Part shown: positions 1 to 31,514 of the stretch, in pieces | How the letters are laid out: the number at the start of each line of letters is the position of its first letter | How positions within the stretch are numbered: the stretch's first letter is position 1 | NCBI GenBank assembly: GCA_016789955.1 | Contig: JAEUPB010000026.1 | Location: 1 to 40,587, forward strand | From: Rubrivivax sp. | GTDB lineage: Bacteria; Pseudomonadota; Gammaproteobacteria; Burkholderiales; Burkholderiaceae_C | DNA: 40,587 nt | Reading direction: 5' to 3' | Made by a program: the position numbers and the translations under genes | The notes under the pieces: generated by a model | The model's database searches: none | What the model was told of the DNA's origin: nothing | What the model saw: the letters and a program-made list of their open reading frames with translations, nothing else

Positions 1-903
<903 letters not shown>

Positions 904-1681: not shown

Positions 1682-3000
1682 AACCGGCGCTGGATGCCTA
1701 CTGGATGCCGTACACGCCGAACCGGCAGTTCAAGGCGGCCCCGAAGCTGGTCGCGTCCGCGCAGGGCGTGGCCTACCGCACGCCCGACGGCCGCGAGGTG
1801 CTGGACGCGCTGTCGGGCCTGTGGTGCGTGGGCGCCGGGCACCGGCATCCGCGCATCGTCGAGGCGATGAAGCGGCAGCTCGACACGCTGGACTTCGCGT
1901 CGAGCTTCCAGGTCGGCCATGCGGCGGCGTTCGAACTCGGCGAGCGCATCGCCGAGCTCTCGCCGCCGGGGCTGGATCGCGTGTTCCTCACCAACAGCGG
2001 CTCGGAAGCCGTGGACACCGCGATGAAGATCGCGCTGGCCCACGCGCGTGCCTGCGGCCAGGGTGCGAAGCAGCTCTTCATCGGCCGCGAGCGTGGCTTC
2101 CACGGCGTGGGCTTCGGCGGCGTATCGGTGGGCGGCATGGTCAACAACCGCCGCGCGTTCGGCCCGGTGCTGCTGCGCAGCGACCACCTGCGCTCGACCT
2201 GGGACCCCGCCACGCAGGCGTTCGTGCGCGGCCAGCCCGAGCACGGTGGCGTGGAGATGGCCGATGAGCTCGAGCGGCTGGTGGCGCTGCACGATGCGTC
2301 GAACATCGCCGCGGTGGTCATCGAGCCGCTCGCCGGCTCCACCGGCGTGCTGGTGCCGCCGCGCGGCTACCTGCAGCGCATCCGCGAGATCTGTGACCGG
2401 CACGCGCTGCTGCTGATCTTCGACGAGGTCATCACCGGCTTCGGGCGCCTGGGCGCGATGTTCGCGGCGCAGGCGCTGGGCGTGGTGCCCGACATGATCG
2501 TGTTCGCCAAGACCGTCAGCAACGGTGCCGCCCCGCTGGGCGGCGTGATGGTGCGCCGCGAGCTGCACGACGCGGTGGTGCAAGGCCCGCCGCACCTGGC
2601 CGAGCTGATGCACGGCTACACCTGCTCGGGCCATCCGCTGGCCTGCGCCGCAGCGCTGGCGATGCTCGACGTGCTGCACGAGGAACGGCTGCCGCAGCGC
2701 GTGGCCGAGCTGGCGCCGCGCTTCGAGGCCCTCGTGCACGGCCTGGCCGACGCACCGGGCGTCGTGAGCATCCGCAACCTCGGCCTGGCCGCCGGCATCG
2801 AGCTCGCCCCCGACGCCGCCGGCCCCGGGCTGCGCGGCACGCGCGCGCAAGCCGCCGCGTTCGACCGCGGCGTGCTCACGCGCACGCCCGGCGACACGCT
2901 GGTCTTCGCGCCGCCCTTCGTCTCCACCGAACACGACCTCCAGCGCATGGCCGAGCGGCTGCGCCTGGCCATCACCGACACCGCAGGACCACCGGCATGA
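1678..3000 (+). CDS. Class III aminotransferase, beta-alanine/omega-amino acid:pyruvate type
   Basis: This 440-residue PLP enzyme of fold type I begins [14 protein letters not shown], the characteristic start of omega-amino acid:pyruvate aminotransferases. It has the phosphate-binding TNSGSEA (105-111), the [12 protein letters not shown] segment (142-153), the PLP-nitrogen Asp249 in [11 protein letters not shown] and the Schiff-base Lys278 in [11 protein letters not shown]. Members move the terminal amino group of beta-alanine or similar omega-amines to pyruvate, giving an aldehyde and alanine. The aldehyde or alcohol dehydrogenases on both sides could process that product, which is inference. 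The start overlaps the SDR stop by four bases and the stop overlaps the next start by four (ATGA at 2997-3000), indicating translational coupling. The taurine:pyruvate class is a close alternative. Confidence 0.9.
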
Positions 3001-26382: not shown

Positions 26383-26414
26383 TTGCCGTTGTGCATATAA
26401 AAAGTATAGTGCAC
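26383..26414. promoter_or_regulatory. Promoter and candidate HxlR operator between divergent genes
   Basis: For the plus strand, TTGCCG (26383-26388) and TATAGT (26405-26410) are separated by 16 bases, a good sigma-70 promoter 41 bases before the molybdopterin gene ATG. The same stretch holds an imperfect dyad, GTGCATATA (26391-26399) and TATAGTGCAC (26405-26414), one base out of perfect symmetry. TATACT on the minus strand (26408-26403) could serve the HxlR/MATE operon. A repressor bound here would cover both promoters. Confidence 0.6.
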
Positions 26415-26450
26415 TGGCACCGCCGTTCCACCGCTTCCGGAGAGTCCCGC

Positions 26451-28763
26451 ATGACCGACCGCACCGAAGACCCCCGCTGGCAGCCCTCGGCCTGCATCCT
26501 CTGCGAGTGCAACTGCGGCCTGGAGGTGGAACTCGGCGGCGCCGACGGCCGCCGCCTCGTGCGCGTGCGCGGCGACGACGCGCACCCGGCGTCGCAGGGC
26601 TATGCCTGCGAGAAGGCCTCGCGCATCGATTACTACCAGAACGGCCCGCAGCGCCTGACGAAGCCGCTGCGCCGCCGGCCCGACGGCGGATTCGACGAGA
26701 TCGACTGGGACACCGCCATCGCCGAGGTCAGCGCACGCGCGATGGCGCTGGCGCAGCGGCACGGCGGCAGCAGCATCCTCTACTACGGCGGCGGCGGCCA
26801 GGGCAACCACCTGCCCAGCGTCTACAGCCGCCCGCTGCGCGCGGCGCTCGGCATGCGCTACCAGTCCAGCGCACTGGCGCAGGAGAAGACCGGCGCCTTC
26901 TACGTGGCTGGCTCGATGCTCGGCGGCCTCGTGCGCGCCGACTTCGAGCACTGCGAGGTGGCGCTGCTGATCGGCAAGAACCCGTGGCACTCGCACGGCA
27001 TCGCCCGTGCCCGGGTGACGCTGCGCGACATCGCCCGCGACCCGGCGCGCACGCTGATGGTGATCGACCCGCGGCTCAGCGAAACCGCCGAGATCGCCGA
27101 CGTGCACCTGCGCGTGCGCCCCGGCGCCGACGCCTTCCTGCTCGCCGCGATGGTGGCCACCGTCGTGCAGGAAGACCTCGTCGCCCACGCCTGGCTGCAG
27201 CAGCACGCCGATGGCCTGGACGACGTGCGCCCGCTGTTCGCCGCGCTGCCCATCGCCGACTACGCGGCCAAGGCCGGCATCGACGAAGCCACGGTGCGGG
27301 CCGCCGCGCGCCGCATCGCCGGTGCGAAGAGCGTGGCCAGCTTCGAGGACCTGGGCGTGCAGATGAACCGGCACTCCACGCTGGTGTCGTACCTGCACCT
27401 GCTGCTGTTGCTGCTCACCGGCCACTTCTGCAGGCCGGGCACGATGTTCCGCCCCACGGCGATGGCACCGCTGGTGGCCAGCGCCACCGGACCGGGCTCG
27501 CTGAAGCCCACGCCGGTGACGGGCGCGCACATCATCGGCGGGCTGATGCCGTGCAACGTGATTCCGGACGAGATCCTCACCGAGCACCCGAAGCGCTTCC
27601 GCGGCATGTGGGTGGAATCGGCCAACCCGGCTCACTCGCTGGCCGATGGGCCGCGCATGCGCGAGGCGCTGGCGGCGCTGGAGCTTCTGGTGGTGGTGGA
27701 CGTGTCGATGACCGAGACGGCACGCCTGGCGCACTACGTGCTGCCGGTGGCCAGCCAGCTCGAGAAGGCCGAGTGCACCTTCTTCAACTTCGAGTTCCCG
27801 CGCAACGTGTTCCAGCTGCGTCGCGCGCTGATGCCGCCGCCCGAGGGGCTGTTCTCCGAGGCCGAGCTGCACGCGAGGCTGCTCGAACGCGCCAGGGCCT
27901 TGCCCGAGCAGGCCGTCGCCGCGCTGCGCGACGCGTGGCCGCAAGGCCGTGCCGCGTTCCGCCGCGTGCTGGGCGAGCAGATGGCCGCCACGCCCACGCT
28001 GGCCGGGCTGCTGCCGGTGCTTCTGTACCGCGCCATCGGCCCGCTGCTGCCGACCGGCCTGGCCGAAGGCGCGGCGCTGTGGGCGCTGTGCCAGAACGCG
28101 GCGAAGCACCAGCGCGCGTCGCTGCAGCGCGCCGGGCATGGCGTGGACGCGGCCAGCGCGGCCGAGGTCGGCGATGCCCTCTTCGACGCGATGTTGTCGT
28201 CCCCGTCGGGCTTCGTCTTCAGCCAAGATGACTGGGACGAGTCGATGCGCCGCGTGGCCACGCCCAACGGCCGCATCCAGCTCGCGCTGCCGGAGTTCTT
28301 CGACGAGCTGCGAGCGCTGAACGACGAGCCGGCACCCGGCCCCACGGCCGACTGGCCGCTGGTGCTCTCGGCCGGCGAGCGGCGCTCGTACACGGCCAAC
28401 ACGATCATCCGCAATCCCGACTGGCGCCGCAAGGATCGTGATGGTGCGCTGCGCATCCACCCGGCCGATGCGGACTCGTTCGGCCTGGCGTCGGGTGACG
28501 CCGCGCGCCTCACCACGCCGCGCGGCTCGGCGATGGTGACGGTGGAACTCTCCGACCGCATGAGCCCGGGCCACGTGTCACTGCCGAACGGCCACGGCAT
28601 GGACTACGCGCCGGGTGCAGGCGCCGATGCGGCGCTGCACGGCACACCGCCGAACGAGCTGACGAGCGCCGACGCGCGCGACGCCTTCGCCGGCACGCCG
28701 TGGCACAAGTACGTGCCGGCTCGGCTGGAGCGCATCGCGGTGGCCGCTGCCGGAGACGACTGA
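26451..28763 (+). CDS. Molybdopterin-dependent oxidoreductase (DMSO reductase superfamily catalytic subunit)
   Basis: The protein has 770 residues. The N-terminal iron-sulfur domain has Cys15, Cys18, Cys22 and Cys53 (C-x2-C-x3-C-x30-C), with an extra Cys20. The molybdopterin domain follows (GKNPWHSHG, VIDPRLSETAEIAD, WVESANPAHS) and then the C-terminal dinucleotide-binding domain (about 650-770, with TANTIIRNPDW and SLPNGHGMDYAP). There is no Tat signal, so it is cytoplasmic. I cannot assign the metal-ligand residue with confidence. No FeS, membrane-anchor or chaperone gene adjoins it. The HxlR regulator is divergent and the glycosyltransferase follows after 20 bases. The substrate is unknown; formate-, thiosulfate- and aldehyde-type enzymes share this layout. 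Confidence 0.88.
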   Translation: MTDRTEDPRWQPSACILCECNCGLEVELGGADGRRLVRVRGDDAHPASQGYACEKASRIDYYQNGPQRLTKPLRRRPDGGFDEIDWDTAIAEVSARAMALAQRHGGSSILYYGGGGQGNHLPSVYSRPLRAALGMRYQSSALAQEKTGAFYVAGSMLGGLVRADFEHCEVALLIGKNPWHSHGIARARVTLRDIARDPARTLMVIDPRLSETAEIADVHLRVRPGADAFLLAAMVATVVQEDLVAHAWLQQHADGLDDVRPLFAALPIADYAAKAGIDEATVRAAARRIAGAKSVASFEDLGVQMNRHSTLVSYLHLLLLLLTGHFCRPGTMFRPTAMAPLVASATGPGSLKPTPVTGAHIIGGLMPCNVIPDEILTEHPKRFRGMWVESANPAHSLADGPRMREALAALELLVVVDVSMTETARLAHYVLPVASQLEKAECTFFNFEFPRNVFQLRRALMPPPEGLFSEAELHARLLERARALPEQAVAALRDAWPQGRAAFRRVLGEQMAATPTLAGLLPVLLYRAIGPLLPTGLAEGAALWALCQNAAKHQRASLQRAGHGVDAASAAEVGDALFDAMLSSPSGFVFSQDDWDESMRRVATPNGRIQLALPEFFDELRALNDEPAPGPTADWPLVLSAGERRSYTANTIIRNPDWRRKDRDGALRIHPADADSFGLASGDAARLTTPRGSAMVTVELSDRMSPGHVSLPNGHGMDYAPGAGADAALHGTPPNELTSADARDAFAGTPWHKYVPARLERIAVAAAGDD

Positions 28764-28783: not shown

Positions 28784-29476
28784 ATGCGCGTCGCCGTGAT
28801 CACGCCTTACCACCGGGAGCCGCTCGAGATGCTGCAGCGCTGTCACGCGAGCGTGGCAGCGCAGACGCTGGGCAGCGTCGAGCACCTGATGGTGAGCGAC
28901 GGCCATCCACACGCCGAGATCGACGCCTGGCCGGTGCAGCACGTGTGCCTGCCCCACTGCGGCGACATGGGCGACACGCCACGCGCCACCGGCGCCGCGG
29001 TGGCAGCCGCCCGCGGCGCCGACGCCATCGCCTTCCTCGACGCCGACTGCTGGTACGAGCCGCAGCACCTCGAACGCCTCGCCGCGCTGCTCACCGACGC
29101 CACACCGGTCGTGACCTGCGCGCGGCGGCTGTGGAAGCGCGACGGTTCGCCGCTGGGCACCGACGACGAGAGCGATGGCGCGGCGTTCAACGACACCAAC
29201 TGCTACCTGCTCGGCCGCCGGGCGTTCGGCTATGTGTCGGCGCTGCTGTTCAAGCGCGCCGACCTCGCGCTGGTGGGCGACCGCGTGCTATGGCAGGTGC
29301 TGCCGCGCGAATGGCGCGTGCGCTCGCCCGAGCCGACCGTGAACTACACGACGCACTTCGCGTACCACTACCAGCGCCACGGCCTCGTGCCGCCGCCGGA
29401 CAGCCGCGTGATCCACGCCGACGCGCAAGGCCGGTGGCATGCGACGACCTACGCCGAGGCGCCACGCCGGGCCTGA
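28784..29476 (+). CDS. Small family 2-like (GT-A) glycosyltransferase
   Basis: The 230-residue protein opens with the Rossmann-like MRVAVITPYHREP and HLMVSDGHPH. The metal/nucleotide-sugar motif is DAD (86-88) in IAFLDADCWYEP. It is shorter than usual, with a compact acceptor half containing CYLLGRRAF and VNYTTHFAYHYQRHG, and has no membrane helix. ATG 28784 is chosen because the fold starts there, although the frame is open upstream. It directly follows the molybdopterin enzyme gene, an odd pairing with no obvious functional link. Donor and acceptor are unknown. Confidence 0.8.
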   Translation: MRVAVITPYHREPLEMLQRCHASVAAQTLGSVEHLMVSDGHPHAEIDAWPVQHVCLPHCGDMGDTPRATGAAVAAARGADAIAFLDADCWYEPQHLERLAALLTDATPVVTCARRLWKRDGSPLGTDDESDGAAFNDTNCYLLGRRAFGYVSALLFKRADLALVGDRVLWQVLPREWRVRSPEPTVNYTTHFAYHYQRHGLVPPPDSRVIHADAQGRWHATTYAEAPRRA

Positions 29477-29506: not shown

Positions 29507-29848
29507 CTACGGCACGCCCACCGTGTGCCGCAGCGCGAGCCCCACCGCCACGCTCGCCGCGTTGGCCACCGCGCTCCACACGAGTGGCCGCCGCGCCCCG
29601 CGGTGCGCGAGCCACGCAGCCTCCACGCCGACCGCGAAGACCTCCGCCAGCGCGACCATCGGCCAGTAGCCGAGCGCGTCTTCGAACAGCGCCGGGAACA
29701 CGAACCACACGAGCGGATGCGTCAGCGCACTCGCGAGCAGCGCGCCGGCCCAGCTGGCCCGCACGCCGAGGCGGTAGATCGGCGCCTCGATGACCTCGGT
29801 GAGCACGAAGGCCGGCAGCCAGCCGACCAGGGCGGCCCACAGGCTCAC
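29507..29848 (-). CDS. Three-helix membrane protein, unknown
   Basis: The protein has 113 residues with three to four hydrophobic helices (LWAALVGWLPAFVLTEV, AGALLASALTHPLVWFV and YWPMVALAEVFAVGVEA) and a short basic turn HRGARRP. The GTG start at 29848 overlaps the stop of the upstream membrane-protein gene by four bases. I do not recognise a family. Conserved-looking polar residues inside helices (Glu in LTEVIEAPIY, His in LTHPLVW, two Glu in AEVFAVGVEAAW) suggest more than a simple anchor. It is last in a three-gene unit with tight overlaps and is convergent with the glycosyltransferase gene. Confidence 0.75.
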   Translation of the reverse strand: MSLWAALVGWLPAFVLTEVIEAPIYRLGVRASWAGALLASALTHPLVWFVFPALFEDALGYWPMVALAEVFAVGVEAAWLAHRGARRPLVWSAVANAASVAVGLALRHTVGVP

Positions 29849-30876
29849 GCCGCCGCCGGCCGCCGGCGCTCGACGACCAGCAGCGCGATCACCGCCAGCT
29901 CGAGGTAGCCGTGAAACGCCGCGAGCCGCAGGTAGCCGTCGCGCGCGGCCACCAGGTCGCACGCGCCCCACAGCGCGATGGCCGCCGCCAGCACCGCCGT
30001 GAGGGCCAGCGGCAAGGCGCCGAGGTCGGCGCGCAGCGCGAGCCAGCTGGCGCGGAACGAGCGCGGCACCGGGCGCTCGCGGGCATCCTCGGGCACCAGC
30101 CTCAGCCACACCGCGTAGTGCACGGCCTGCAGGAACGCGAAACACAGCAGGCCGCGGGCCGAGAACGTGGCATCGCCCAACGGCACGAGCACCTGCGCGT
30201 GCGCGGCGAGATCGATGCCGGTGGCCGGGGCGATCCAGCCACCGAGGCCCGACACCACCGGGTCCATCGCACCGCCGAGCAGCAGCGCCACGCCCGCACC
30301 CACGAGCGGCAGCACGCGGGCCGCGCGCCCGTCGCGCGGCCGCACGCGCCACCACAGCGCCAGCGCCAGCACGTTGTGCCCGTGCAGGAAGGCGATGACG
30401 AACAGCGCCTCGTCGGCGAGCGCGGCCACCGAGAACACGGCCCAGGCCGCAAGCACCATCGCCTTGCGCGCCGCATCACCCCGCGCAAGCACCGCCGCGG
30501 CCATCACCGCGAGCAGCCCCACGGCGGCCGGCGCCCCCAGGCCCACGGCCGCCAGCGGCAGCCCGGCCGCCACGCACAGCCGCGTGCGCCGGTGCAGGCC
30601 CGGCCGCACGACGAGGTAGCGCAGGTCGGCCAGCAGGTGCGGCACGCCCAGCAGCAGCGGGCCCAGCGCCAGCAGCCACAGTGGCACCGAGACCGTCAGC
30701 GCGAACGCCGCCAGCACCGAGAGGCTGCCGAACCAGGCCACGCGCCGCGCGCGGTCGGCGAACAGGCGCGGGCATCGCGGCAGCAGCCGCCGGAAGACGG
30801 CCGCGCGCACGGCATCGCCGCCGCCGAGCAGTGCGCGCAGCGGGCCGGGGATCGGCTCGCCGGCCGCGCGGTTCAC
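29845..30876 (-). CDS. Polytopic membrane protein with intramembrane His/acidic residues, unknown
   Basis: The protein has 343 residues and about eight to nine helices. Charged residues recur at membrane faces: His80/Asp84 in GVPHLLADLRYL, His165/His167 in AFLHGHNVLAL, His253 in LQAVHYAVWLRL, and His322/Glu326 in AAFHGYLELAV. The G-x-P-H-x3-D unit and the later histidines recall the Brp/Blh (bacterial carotene dioxygenase-like) arrangement, where His residues hold iron inside the membrane; this is a weak pattern resemblance, not an established homology. Its ATG and its stop both overlap neighbours by four bases (ATGA at 30873-30876, GTGA at 29845-29848), so the three genes are translationally coupled. 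Confidence 0.75.
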   Translation of the reverse strand: MNRAAGEPIPGPLRALLGGGDAVRAAVFRRLLPRCPRLFADRARRVAWFGSLSVLAAFALTVSVPLWLLALGPLLLGVPHLLADLRYLVVRPGLHRRTRLCVAAGLPLAAVGLGAPAAVGLLAVMAAAVLARGDAARKAMVLAAWAVFSVAALADEALFVIAFLHGHNVLALALWWRVRPRDGRAARVLPLVGAGVALLLGGAMDPVVSGLGGWIAPATGIDLAAHAQVLVPLGDATFSARGLLCFAFLQAVHYAVWLRLVPEDARERPVPRSFRASWLALRADLGALPLALTAVLAAAIALWGACDLVAARDGYLRLAAFHGYLELAVIALLVVERRRPAAA

Positions 30877-31271
30877 CGCGGACCGGACGCCGGGGCCGCA
30901 GGGATGGCTGCGGGCGCGGGTGTGCGCGACGCAGCACGCGCGGCCTCAGACGCCGCTGGCGCCGGTGCCGAGCCCGGCGCGGGCTTGCACCACACCTCCG
31001 TCCACACCGAGGCGCCGCGCGTCCGGCAGGCGCGCACCAGACCTTGCGGCTCGAACTGCTTCTGGCAGCCGTCGGCGTCGCGGAAGCTGCCGCGGCAGCT
31101 CACCGCAGCGCGCCCGGCGCAGGCCCTCTCGGGCGTGCAGGTCTCGACGTACCCCTTGGGCGGCGGGATGTCGGCCCGCGTCGGGCCGGCCAGCGCCAGC
31201 ACGAGGAACGGCAGGAGCGCGGCGAACCTGCGCAGCCTTGGGGGGAACACCGTGGCGGGAGCGTGCGTCAT
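30873..31271 (-). CDS. Secreted six-cysteine protein, unknown
   Basis: The protein has 132 residues. The signal peptide (about 1-33, LLPFLVLALAGPTRA) is followed by DIPPPKGYVETCTPERAC and a compact region with six cysteines (45, 51, 59, 69, 82, 95), enough for three disulfides. The tail of about 35 residues is Ala/Pro/Ser-rich. I chose ATG 31271 because GGAGG lies eight bases upstream; further in-frame starts exist at 31286 and 31298. It is the first gene of the overlapping three-gene unit. I cannot name the family. It is probably a periplasmic, or surface-exposed, disulfide-bonded module acting with the membrane partners. Confidence 0.75.
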   Translation of the reverse strand: MTHAPATVFPPRLRRFAALLPFLVLALAGPTRADIPPPKGYVETCTPERACAGRAAVSCRGSFRDADGCQKQFEPQGLVRACRTRGASVWTEVWCKPAPGSAPAPAASEAARAASRTPAPAAIPAAPASGPR

Positions 31272-31514
31272 CGCAAGGACCTCCATCTGGGCGCCCACGC
31301 GGCCGCGGGGATCGCCTCACGACGATAGCGCCGGCGTGGCACCGGGCGCCGCAGCCCTCGGTTGCGACCCCTGCGCGCCACACGCCGCAGCTACCCAGCG
31401 GCGGCGGTGACGAGGGCGCCTCGAATGCCGAGGCGCAATTGAAGATGCTGCGGATCGGGTTGTTCGGCGGGGATTGACGCCGCCCGCGCTGCTCACCGGG
31501 TGCGCGCAGAATCC

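Follow-up and report, generated by a model that had tools for sequence, protein, structure and literature searches.

What do three overlapping genes accomplish that encode a small exported protein (P1), a polytopic membrane protein with conserved histidines (P2) and a second, smaller membrane protein (P3), and do their products catalyze a reaction or transport a substrate? This question is raised by a minus-strand locus in a Rubrivivax sp. contig of 40,587 nucleotides (subsequently designated the window, i.e. the whole stretch of DNA that was analyzed). An earlier note, which was made from the sequence, had described exact four-base overlaps between the genes, and indeed the stop codon of the one gene and the start codon of the next share a GTGA at both joints (Table 1). 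Read from these overlaps, the three proteins may be produced in fixed proportion. The flanking genes, named by eye, are located on the plus strand, with a glycosyltransferase-like gene reaching up to position 29476 and, from position 31500 onwards, a gene resembling those for substrate-binding proteins, and therefore the three minus-strand genes represent a unit of their own. The remainder of the window includes a histidinol-dehydrogenase-like frame (16-903, plus strand; judged by eye) with an in-frame stop at 394-396 near the contig end, a tRNA-Ser gene with anticodon gga (2282-2377, minus strand) and a molybdopterin-oxidoreductase-like gene (26391-28763, plus strand), for which the plasmid matches listed share about 51% identity or less.

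Table 1. Coordinates of the three genes and their features in the window.
Feature	Position	Strand	Basis
P1, exported, 132 aa, with six Cys and a Pro/Ala tail	30873..31271	-	open reading frame and sequence; homologue in locus L157 with 47% identity over 66 aa
P1 residues 34-38, DIPPP, predicted mature N-terminus	31158..31172	-	cleavage judged by eye; common to other partners
P1 residues 45-95, six-Cys stretch	30987..31139	-	all six align in the L157 homologue
GTGA overlap, P1 stop/P2 start	30873..30876	-	sequence
P2, polytopic protein, 343 aa, GTG start, 10 predicted membrane helices with N- and C-terminus predicted inside	29845..30876	-	model and topology
P2 residues 80-86 (H80, D84, R86)	30619..30639	-	conservation, 59 loci
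P2 residues 165-168 (H165, H167, N168)	30373..30384	-	conservation, 59 loci
P2 residues 250-257 (Q250, H253, Y254, W257)	30106..30129	-	conservation, 59 loci
P2 residues 315-326 (Y315, H322, E326)	29899..29934	-	conservation, 59 loci
GTGA overlap, P2 stop/P3 start	29845..29848	-	sequence
P3, four-helix membrane protein, 113 aa, GTG start	29507..29848	-	model and open reading frame

The earlier note could name no family for any of the three proteins. This was borne out by searches of Pfam, NCBIfam, PHROGs and PADLOC, in which P1, P2 and P3 remained without match. Even at E 10, no Pfam or NCBIfam family, including enzyme families, was found for P2, and no Pfam family was common to more than one of 25 aligned P2 family members at E 1. 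With the anti-phage defence models of PADLOC, neither P1, P2 and P3 nor an MFS-like protein from a related locus (L158, see below) matched any family at E 1. Confident structural models were obtained for P2 and P3, and these had no significant match among solved folds. Within the four libraries searched, P2 and P3 may thus represent new families with a new architecture, the activity of which may be ordinary transport. Both are conserved families that lack a model in these libraries as well as a significant solved-fold match, and yet they carry polar residues within the membrane that do not vary, usually a sign of chemistry or transport.

To follow conservation of P2, contigs were scanned with six P2 peptide patterns, an approach that reaches close relatives only and delivered 25 loci. 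The window, all of these 25 loci and 33 loci fetched from profile hits in Myxococcota and Planctomycetota together provided 59 distinct P2 loci, which cover part of the profile hits; seven fetched repeats of other loci were dropped. The earlier note had taken His/Asp, His-x-His, His and His/Glu on successive helix faces as suggestive of an intramembrane metal centre. These residues, H80/D84, H165-x-H167, H253 and H322/E326, are distributed over four helices in the model, and their histidines are largely retained. No exchange of H80, R86 or H167 occurs in 59/59 loci, while H253, Y254, P262, Y315, H322 and E326 are kept in 58/59, the single gap being a copy cut by the contig end. Residue 84 is Asp in 56 loci and Glu in three, and N168, Q250, W257 and H165 are retained in 58, 57, 56 and 54 of the 59 loci, respectively. 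Even the three remotest relatives (L106-L108) retain H80, R86, Y87, H167, H253, Y254, Y315, H322 and E326. The inside loops of P2 contain a total of 30 Lys/Arg residues and the outside loops none, which according to the positive-inside rule places both ends of the protein inside, and consequently the four His-bearing helices run in the same direction. Counted from the outer helix end, H80 is found at residue 15 of 25, H167 at 11 of 22, H253 at 17 of 29 and H322 at 14 of 28. Taking helix positions and the positive-inside rule together, the histidines are hence predicted to reside at similar depth rather than on different sides, and in the model their positions are compatible with one mid-membrane site.

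P2 has its main distribution outside the phylum of the host. The tree contained 24 of the pattern-scan loci, 20 of which are labelled Myxococcota and one each Verrucomicrobiota, Planctomycetota and Pseudomonadota (the last by its title), while one is without phylum label. The single locus labelled Pseudomonadota (L007) lies on a contig that reappears in a Myxococcota sample. Profile surveys detected P2 in 60/377 Myxococcota, some of them with a weak or incomplete match (G309 at E 8e-4; G388), in 8/246 Planctomycetota, among them the query's own genome, and in 1/240 Verrucomicrobiota and 1/349 Pseudomonadota, which are the query's own and the window's own genome, respectively. P2 was absent by profile from the first-look candidates of the 348 other sampled Pseudomonadota; absences in these surveys, and in the P3 survey below, are soft, as 6 to 16 first-look candidates were scored per genome. 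P2 was likewise not found in 60 relatives of the host, 36 of them of the same genus. A maximum-likelihood tree was built from 58 P2 proteins (L021 was left out; L104 and L105 are near duplicates), and there the window copy is part of a supported set (100/99) with five Myxococcota. As P2 occurs in Myxococcota, but in no other sampled Pseudomonadota, the best reading of the sequences is that the window copy was probably acquired horizontally from Myxococcota. One window gene has its best match on an Azoarcus plasmid (68%), and two other window genes point to no one group. Rather than by acquisition, the finding may be explained by a mis-binned contig; the genome is listed as 79.6% complete.

As described in the earlier note, P1 possesses six Cys (residues 45, 51, 59, 69, 82 and 95) and a Pro/Ala tail, and its signal-peptide-like start, delimited by eye, ends with TRA directly ahead of DIPPP. 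A disulfide-bonded periplasmic component, as suggested there for the module, is not the general rule, since the partners in L026 and L103 are devoid of Cys. What is shared instead is the mature start. Judged from the sequences, the constant of the exported partner is a putative mature N-terminus Asp-(Ile/Val/Leu)-x-P, which applies where a partner was seen (26/59 loci, some of them loosely). A scan for the D-[ILV]-x-P motif returned 22 hits near P2 versus 17 elsewhere in 852,475 bases (both strands), corresponding to an about 16-fold higher density near P2. Eighteen of the 22 represent loci with the motif upstream of P2 and two are tandem second copies; one hit is downstream and one looks false (L005 at -799). 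Among the 17 hits elsewhere, at least three look like real partner-type genes (L002 at -1465, L011 in divergent orientation, and L084). With partner classes assigned by eye, 21/59 loci carry a D-[ILV]-x-P-type gene just upstream of P2, including L026, which was missed by the scan, and L098 and L103 with looser starts. In other cases the gene is found just downstream of P2 with a looser start (L008, L009), downstream of P3 (L100) or divergently oriented (L011), or its start is unclear (L118). No such partner was seen nearby in the remaining 33/59 loci by motif scan and eye; four of these (L019, L020, L091, L112) encode a different small protein, which is exported and contains Asp, Cys and Pro-Pro.

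The partners vary in length and Cys content across loci. In L026, the partner is encoded about 40-180 bases before P2 and combines a short M-F-L-A-D-I-P-P-P beginning with a single membrane helix and a C-terminal end rich in Arg; as read, it is without clear signal peptide and its N-terminus may lie outside uncleaved. Tandem P1-type genes precede P2 in L002, L003, L004 and L006, some with and others without a C-terminal anchor. The remote P2 relatives from Planctomycetota (L106, L107, L130) are accompanied by an exported partner in which an AD[IV]-type start is followed by LysM-like sequence (by eye), unlike the small Cys-rich partners. When all open reading frames within 9 kb of P2 were compared all-against-all across the 59 loci, P3 and P1-type genes were the widely recurring neighbours among the at least 45 clusters listed, which also contained antisense frames, a protein-kinase-like family without a fixed position and small clusters with members from about five loci. 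In five loci, a prolipoprotein diacylglyceryl transferase-like gene (by eye) is present at a distance of about 3-4 kb from P2; in L083, it is located at about +3.9 kb on the opposite strand.

P3 had been taken for a three-helix protein, which has to be corrected: the model comprises four helices (residues 3-29, 33-59, 61-82 and 88-110). Twelve residues are invariant in 18 aligned rows, namely W10, T17, E21, T43, H44, P45, W48, E69, E76, N96, S99 and G103. The genes are found together elsewhere, with P3 directly following P2 in 42/59 loci and an in-frame four-base overlap in 31 of these 42 adjacent pairs; two of the 17 loci lacking an adjacent P3 end at the contig. Among 16 genomes in which P2 has no adjacent P3, 12 hold P3 somewhere, in two cases beside another P2 copy (G483, G629) and in two as weak hits only (G627, G515), while four have none. 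By profile, P3 was detected in 79/282 Myxococcota, a sample taken as G262, G264 and G268-G547 as inferred from handle numbers. It is present in 38/40 genomes with P2 versus 41/242 without a P2 hit (Fisher P ~1.5e-22, kinship not corrected), and computation thus shows that the association of P3 with P2 at genome level persists where the two genes are not linked. In loci lacking P2, P3 is directly preceded by a P1-like gene (L172) or by a small exported-looking gene (L170), or it directly follows a longer protein, as is the case in seven P3-only loci (L159, L160, L161, L163, L167, L169, L171). The C-terminus of this second recurring P3 neighbour reads Y-x-C-D-R-G-x-F or similar. The P3-only loci fit a role of P3 as adaptor for exported proteins and weaken a strict three-part definition of the module.

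A handle on function is provided by two loci, L157 (G311) and L158 (G356), in which P1-type and P3 genes flank not P2 but a gene for a protein of 362-368 aa. The two middle proteins share 46% identity, and the L157 protein aligns with MFS_1 via residues 39-301 on profile positions 35-333 of 347, albeit at E 0.062 and 12.6 bits with a cut-off of 33.4. Its counterpart from L158 matched neither an NCBIfam family nor a PDB sequence. The P1 of L157 is a relative of the window P1 (47% identity over 66 residues, E 2e-19), ADIPPP and all six Cys included, and both joints in L157 consist of an ATGA overlap. Accordingly, as judged by sequence comparison, the same P1 type and P3 apparently go with two unrelated middle proteins, which makes us lean to transport over catalysis. 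Of the original proposal of an enzyme or transporter, it is therefore the transporter that gains from the swap, although this leaning derives from two loci. The window P1 is closest to that of L157, whereas the window P2 is closest to those of L002-L006, and thus parts appear to have been exchanged between modules.

We tentatively favor, at somewhat less than even chance, that P1, P2 and P3 constitute one inner-membrane complex with a transport-type core. We infer that P2 would serve as core of such a complex and move a small cargo, i.e. a metal ion, a proton-coupled solute or a lipid, with the cargo or a proton being bound at the His cluster. P1 would be the extracytoplasmic partner that docks via its N-terminus, and P3 would act as adaptor linking P1 to either core, P2 or the MFS-like protein. 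Arguments for the complex are the computed adjacency and co-occurrence of P2 and P3, the slot swap, the motif at the partner start and the predicted topology of P2. A broader formulation, possible but more doubtful, is a modular machine in which an exported D-[ILV]-x-P protein docks via P3 to at least two unrelated cores, either MFS-like or of the new P2 fold with a four-His metal or proton site. Several findings speak against the transport complex. The swap is confined to two loci and the MFS assignment remains below the Pfam cut-off; moreover, four conserved His plus Asp and Glu fit a metal enzyme equally well. P2 itself has no detectable relation to MFS, a D-[ILV]-x-P-like partner was not seen near P2 in 33/59 loci, and the L026 partner, as read, is without clear signal peptide. 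The 41 sampled genomes with P3 but without a P2 hit, and the longer neighbour in seven P3-only loci, argue that P3 is not specific to a P1-P2-P3 complex.

The main rival, which we consider rather unlikely, holds that P2 is a metal-dependent membrane enzyme, an oxygenase or hydrolase whose substrate would be a lipid or a hydrophobic compound. His and acidic residues would hold a metal mid-membrane, and P1 and P3 would be accessory. Conservation of H80, R86, H167, H253, Y254, Y315, H322 and E326 near mid-membrane on four co-directional helices speaks for such an enzyme, and the G-x-P-H-x-x-x-D stretch of P2 resembles the one in Blh proteins. However, P2 belongs to no enzyme family of Pfam or NCBIfam, the comparison with Blh was negative, and it is difficult to see why an enzyme should share its slot with an MFS-like protein.

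It is improbable that P2 and P3 mature, sort or anchor P1 by recognizing its conserved N-terminus or signal-peptide junction and subsequently modifying or releasing the protein. The window P1 carries no C-terminal anchor, no match of P2 to CPBP or other protease models was found, and the middle protein can be MFS-like. In addition, P2 is restricted to 60/377 Myxococcota, whereas MYXO-CTERM is phylum-wide, so P2 is not a general sorting enzyme. In favor of maturation, the D-[ILV]-x-P start is enriched beside P2, several P1 relatives have MYXO-CTERM-like tails, two of seven scanned scoring above the curated cut-off, and P3 also follows other exported-looking proteins. Least probable, and in our view very unlikely, P2 and P3 act together and P1 is a separate mobile operon passenger sharing no function with them: partner length and Cys content differ and no partner was seen near P2 in 33/59 loci, but the motif is enriched beside P2 and the window and L157 share the same P1 type, with four-base overlaps in both.

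Among known systems, the myxosortase/MYXO-CTERM pathway resembles the module in the MYXO-CTERM-like C-terminus of some P2 partners. Of the seven P1 relatives scanned, the L023 protein scored 20.4 against a cut-off of 20 (TIGR03901) and the 60-aa P1 of L070/L099 scored 16.6 against 15.85 (TIGR03382); the other five were below. The window P1 was rejected as a MYXO-CTERM protein, as it ends with a Pro/Ala tail instead of a C-terminal Cys motif, helix and Arg cluster and had no NCBIfam match, and P2 as a myxosortase as it had no CPBP match and no Pfam or NCBIfam family at E 10. The myxosortase study describes MYXO-CTERM as universal in Myxococcota and proposes that MYXO-CTERM proteins are lipidated by an inner-membrane enzyme still to be identified (PMC11980579). 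P2 is too rare to be this enzyme, and the window P1 is without the tag.

Brp/Blh proteins, the beta-carotene 15,15'-dioxygenase family (PF15461), are polytopic like P2 and likewise combine a G-x-x-H-x-x-x-D stretch with additional His on other helices. In contrast to the HS/HA-type motifs of the four Blh proteins compared, P2 has QxxHY and FHGxxE. A relation to Brp/Blh, which the earlier note had suggested to look for, was not detected: hhalign of 25 P2 rows with 4 Blh rows gave a probability of 0.4% over 30 columns, P2 did not match PF15461 at the Pfam cut-off (28 bits), and at E 1 none of the 25 aligned P2 family members hit PF15461. PF15461 is above cut-off in 4/200 other genomes and in 0/1 for the window's genome. 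The G-x-x-H-x-x-x-D membrane-helix stretch is common to the P2 (residues 77-84), Blh and MFS-like alignments, and these families are without detectable kinship.

Ceramidase/PAQR-type membrane zinc hydrolases are likewise polytopic; one of their helices contains a His with an acidic residue at a spacing of four, and a late helix contains a further His. P2 shares the His/acidic spacing as well as the late-helix His; neither group was among the Pfam families for P2 at E 10.

The MFS-like proteins of L157 and L158 show no detectable kinship to P2: P2 lacked an MFS_1 match at E 10, a profile probability of 0.2% to the two MFS-like proteins was obtained, and no significant fold match was found. What they have in common with P2 is the operon position, flanked by P1-type and P3 genes, which in L157 also overlap the middle gene by four bases. 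It is this swap that offers a handle on the function of P2, and the partner start shared among the loci makes the docking hypothesis directly testable.
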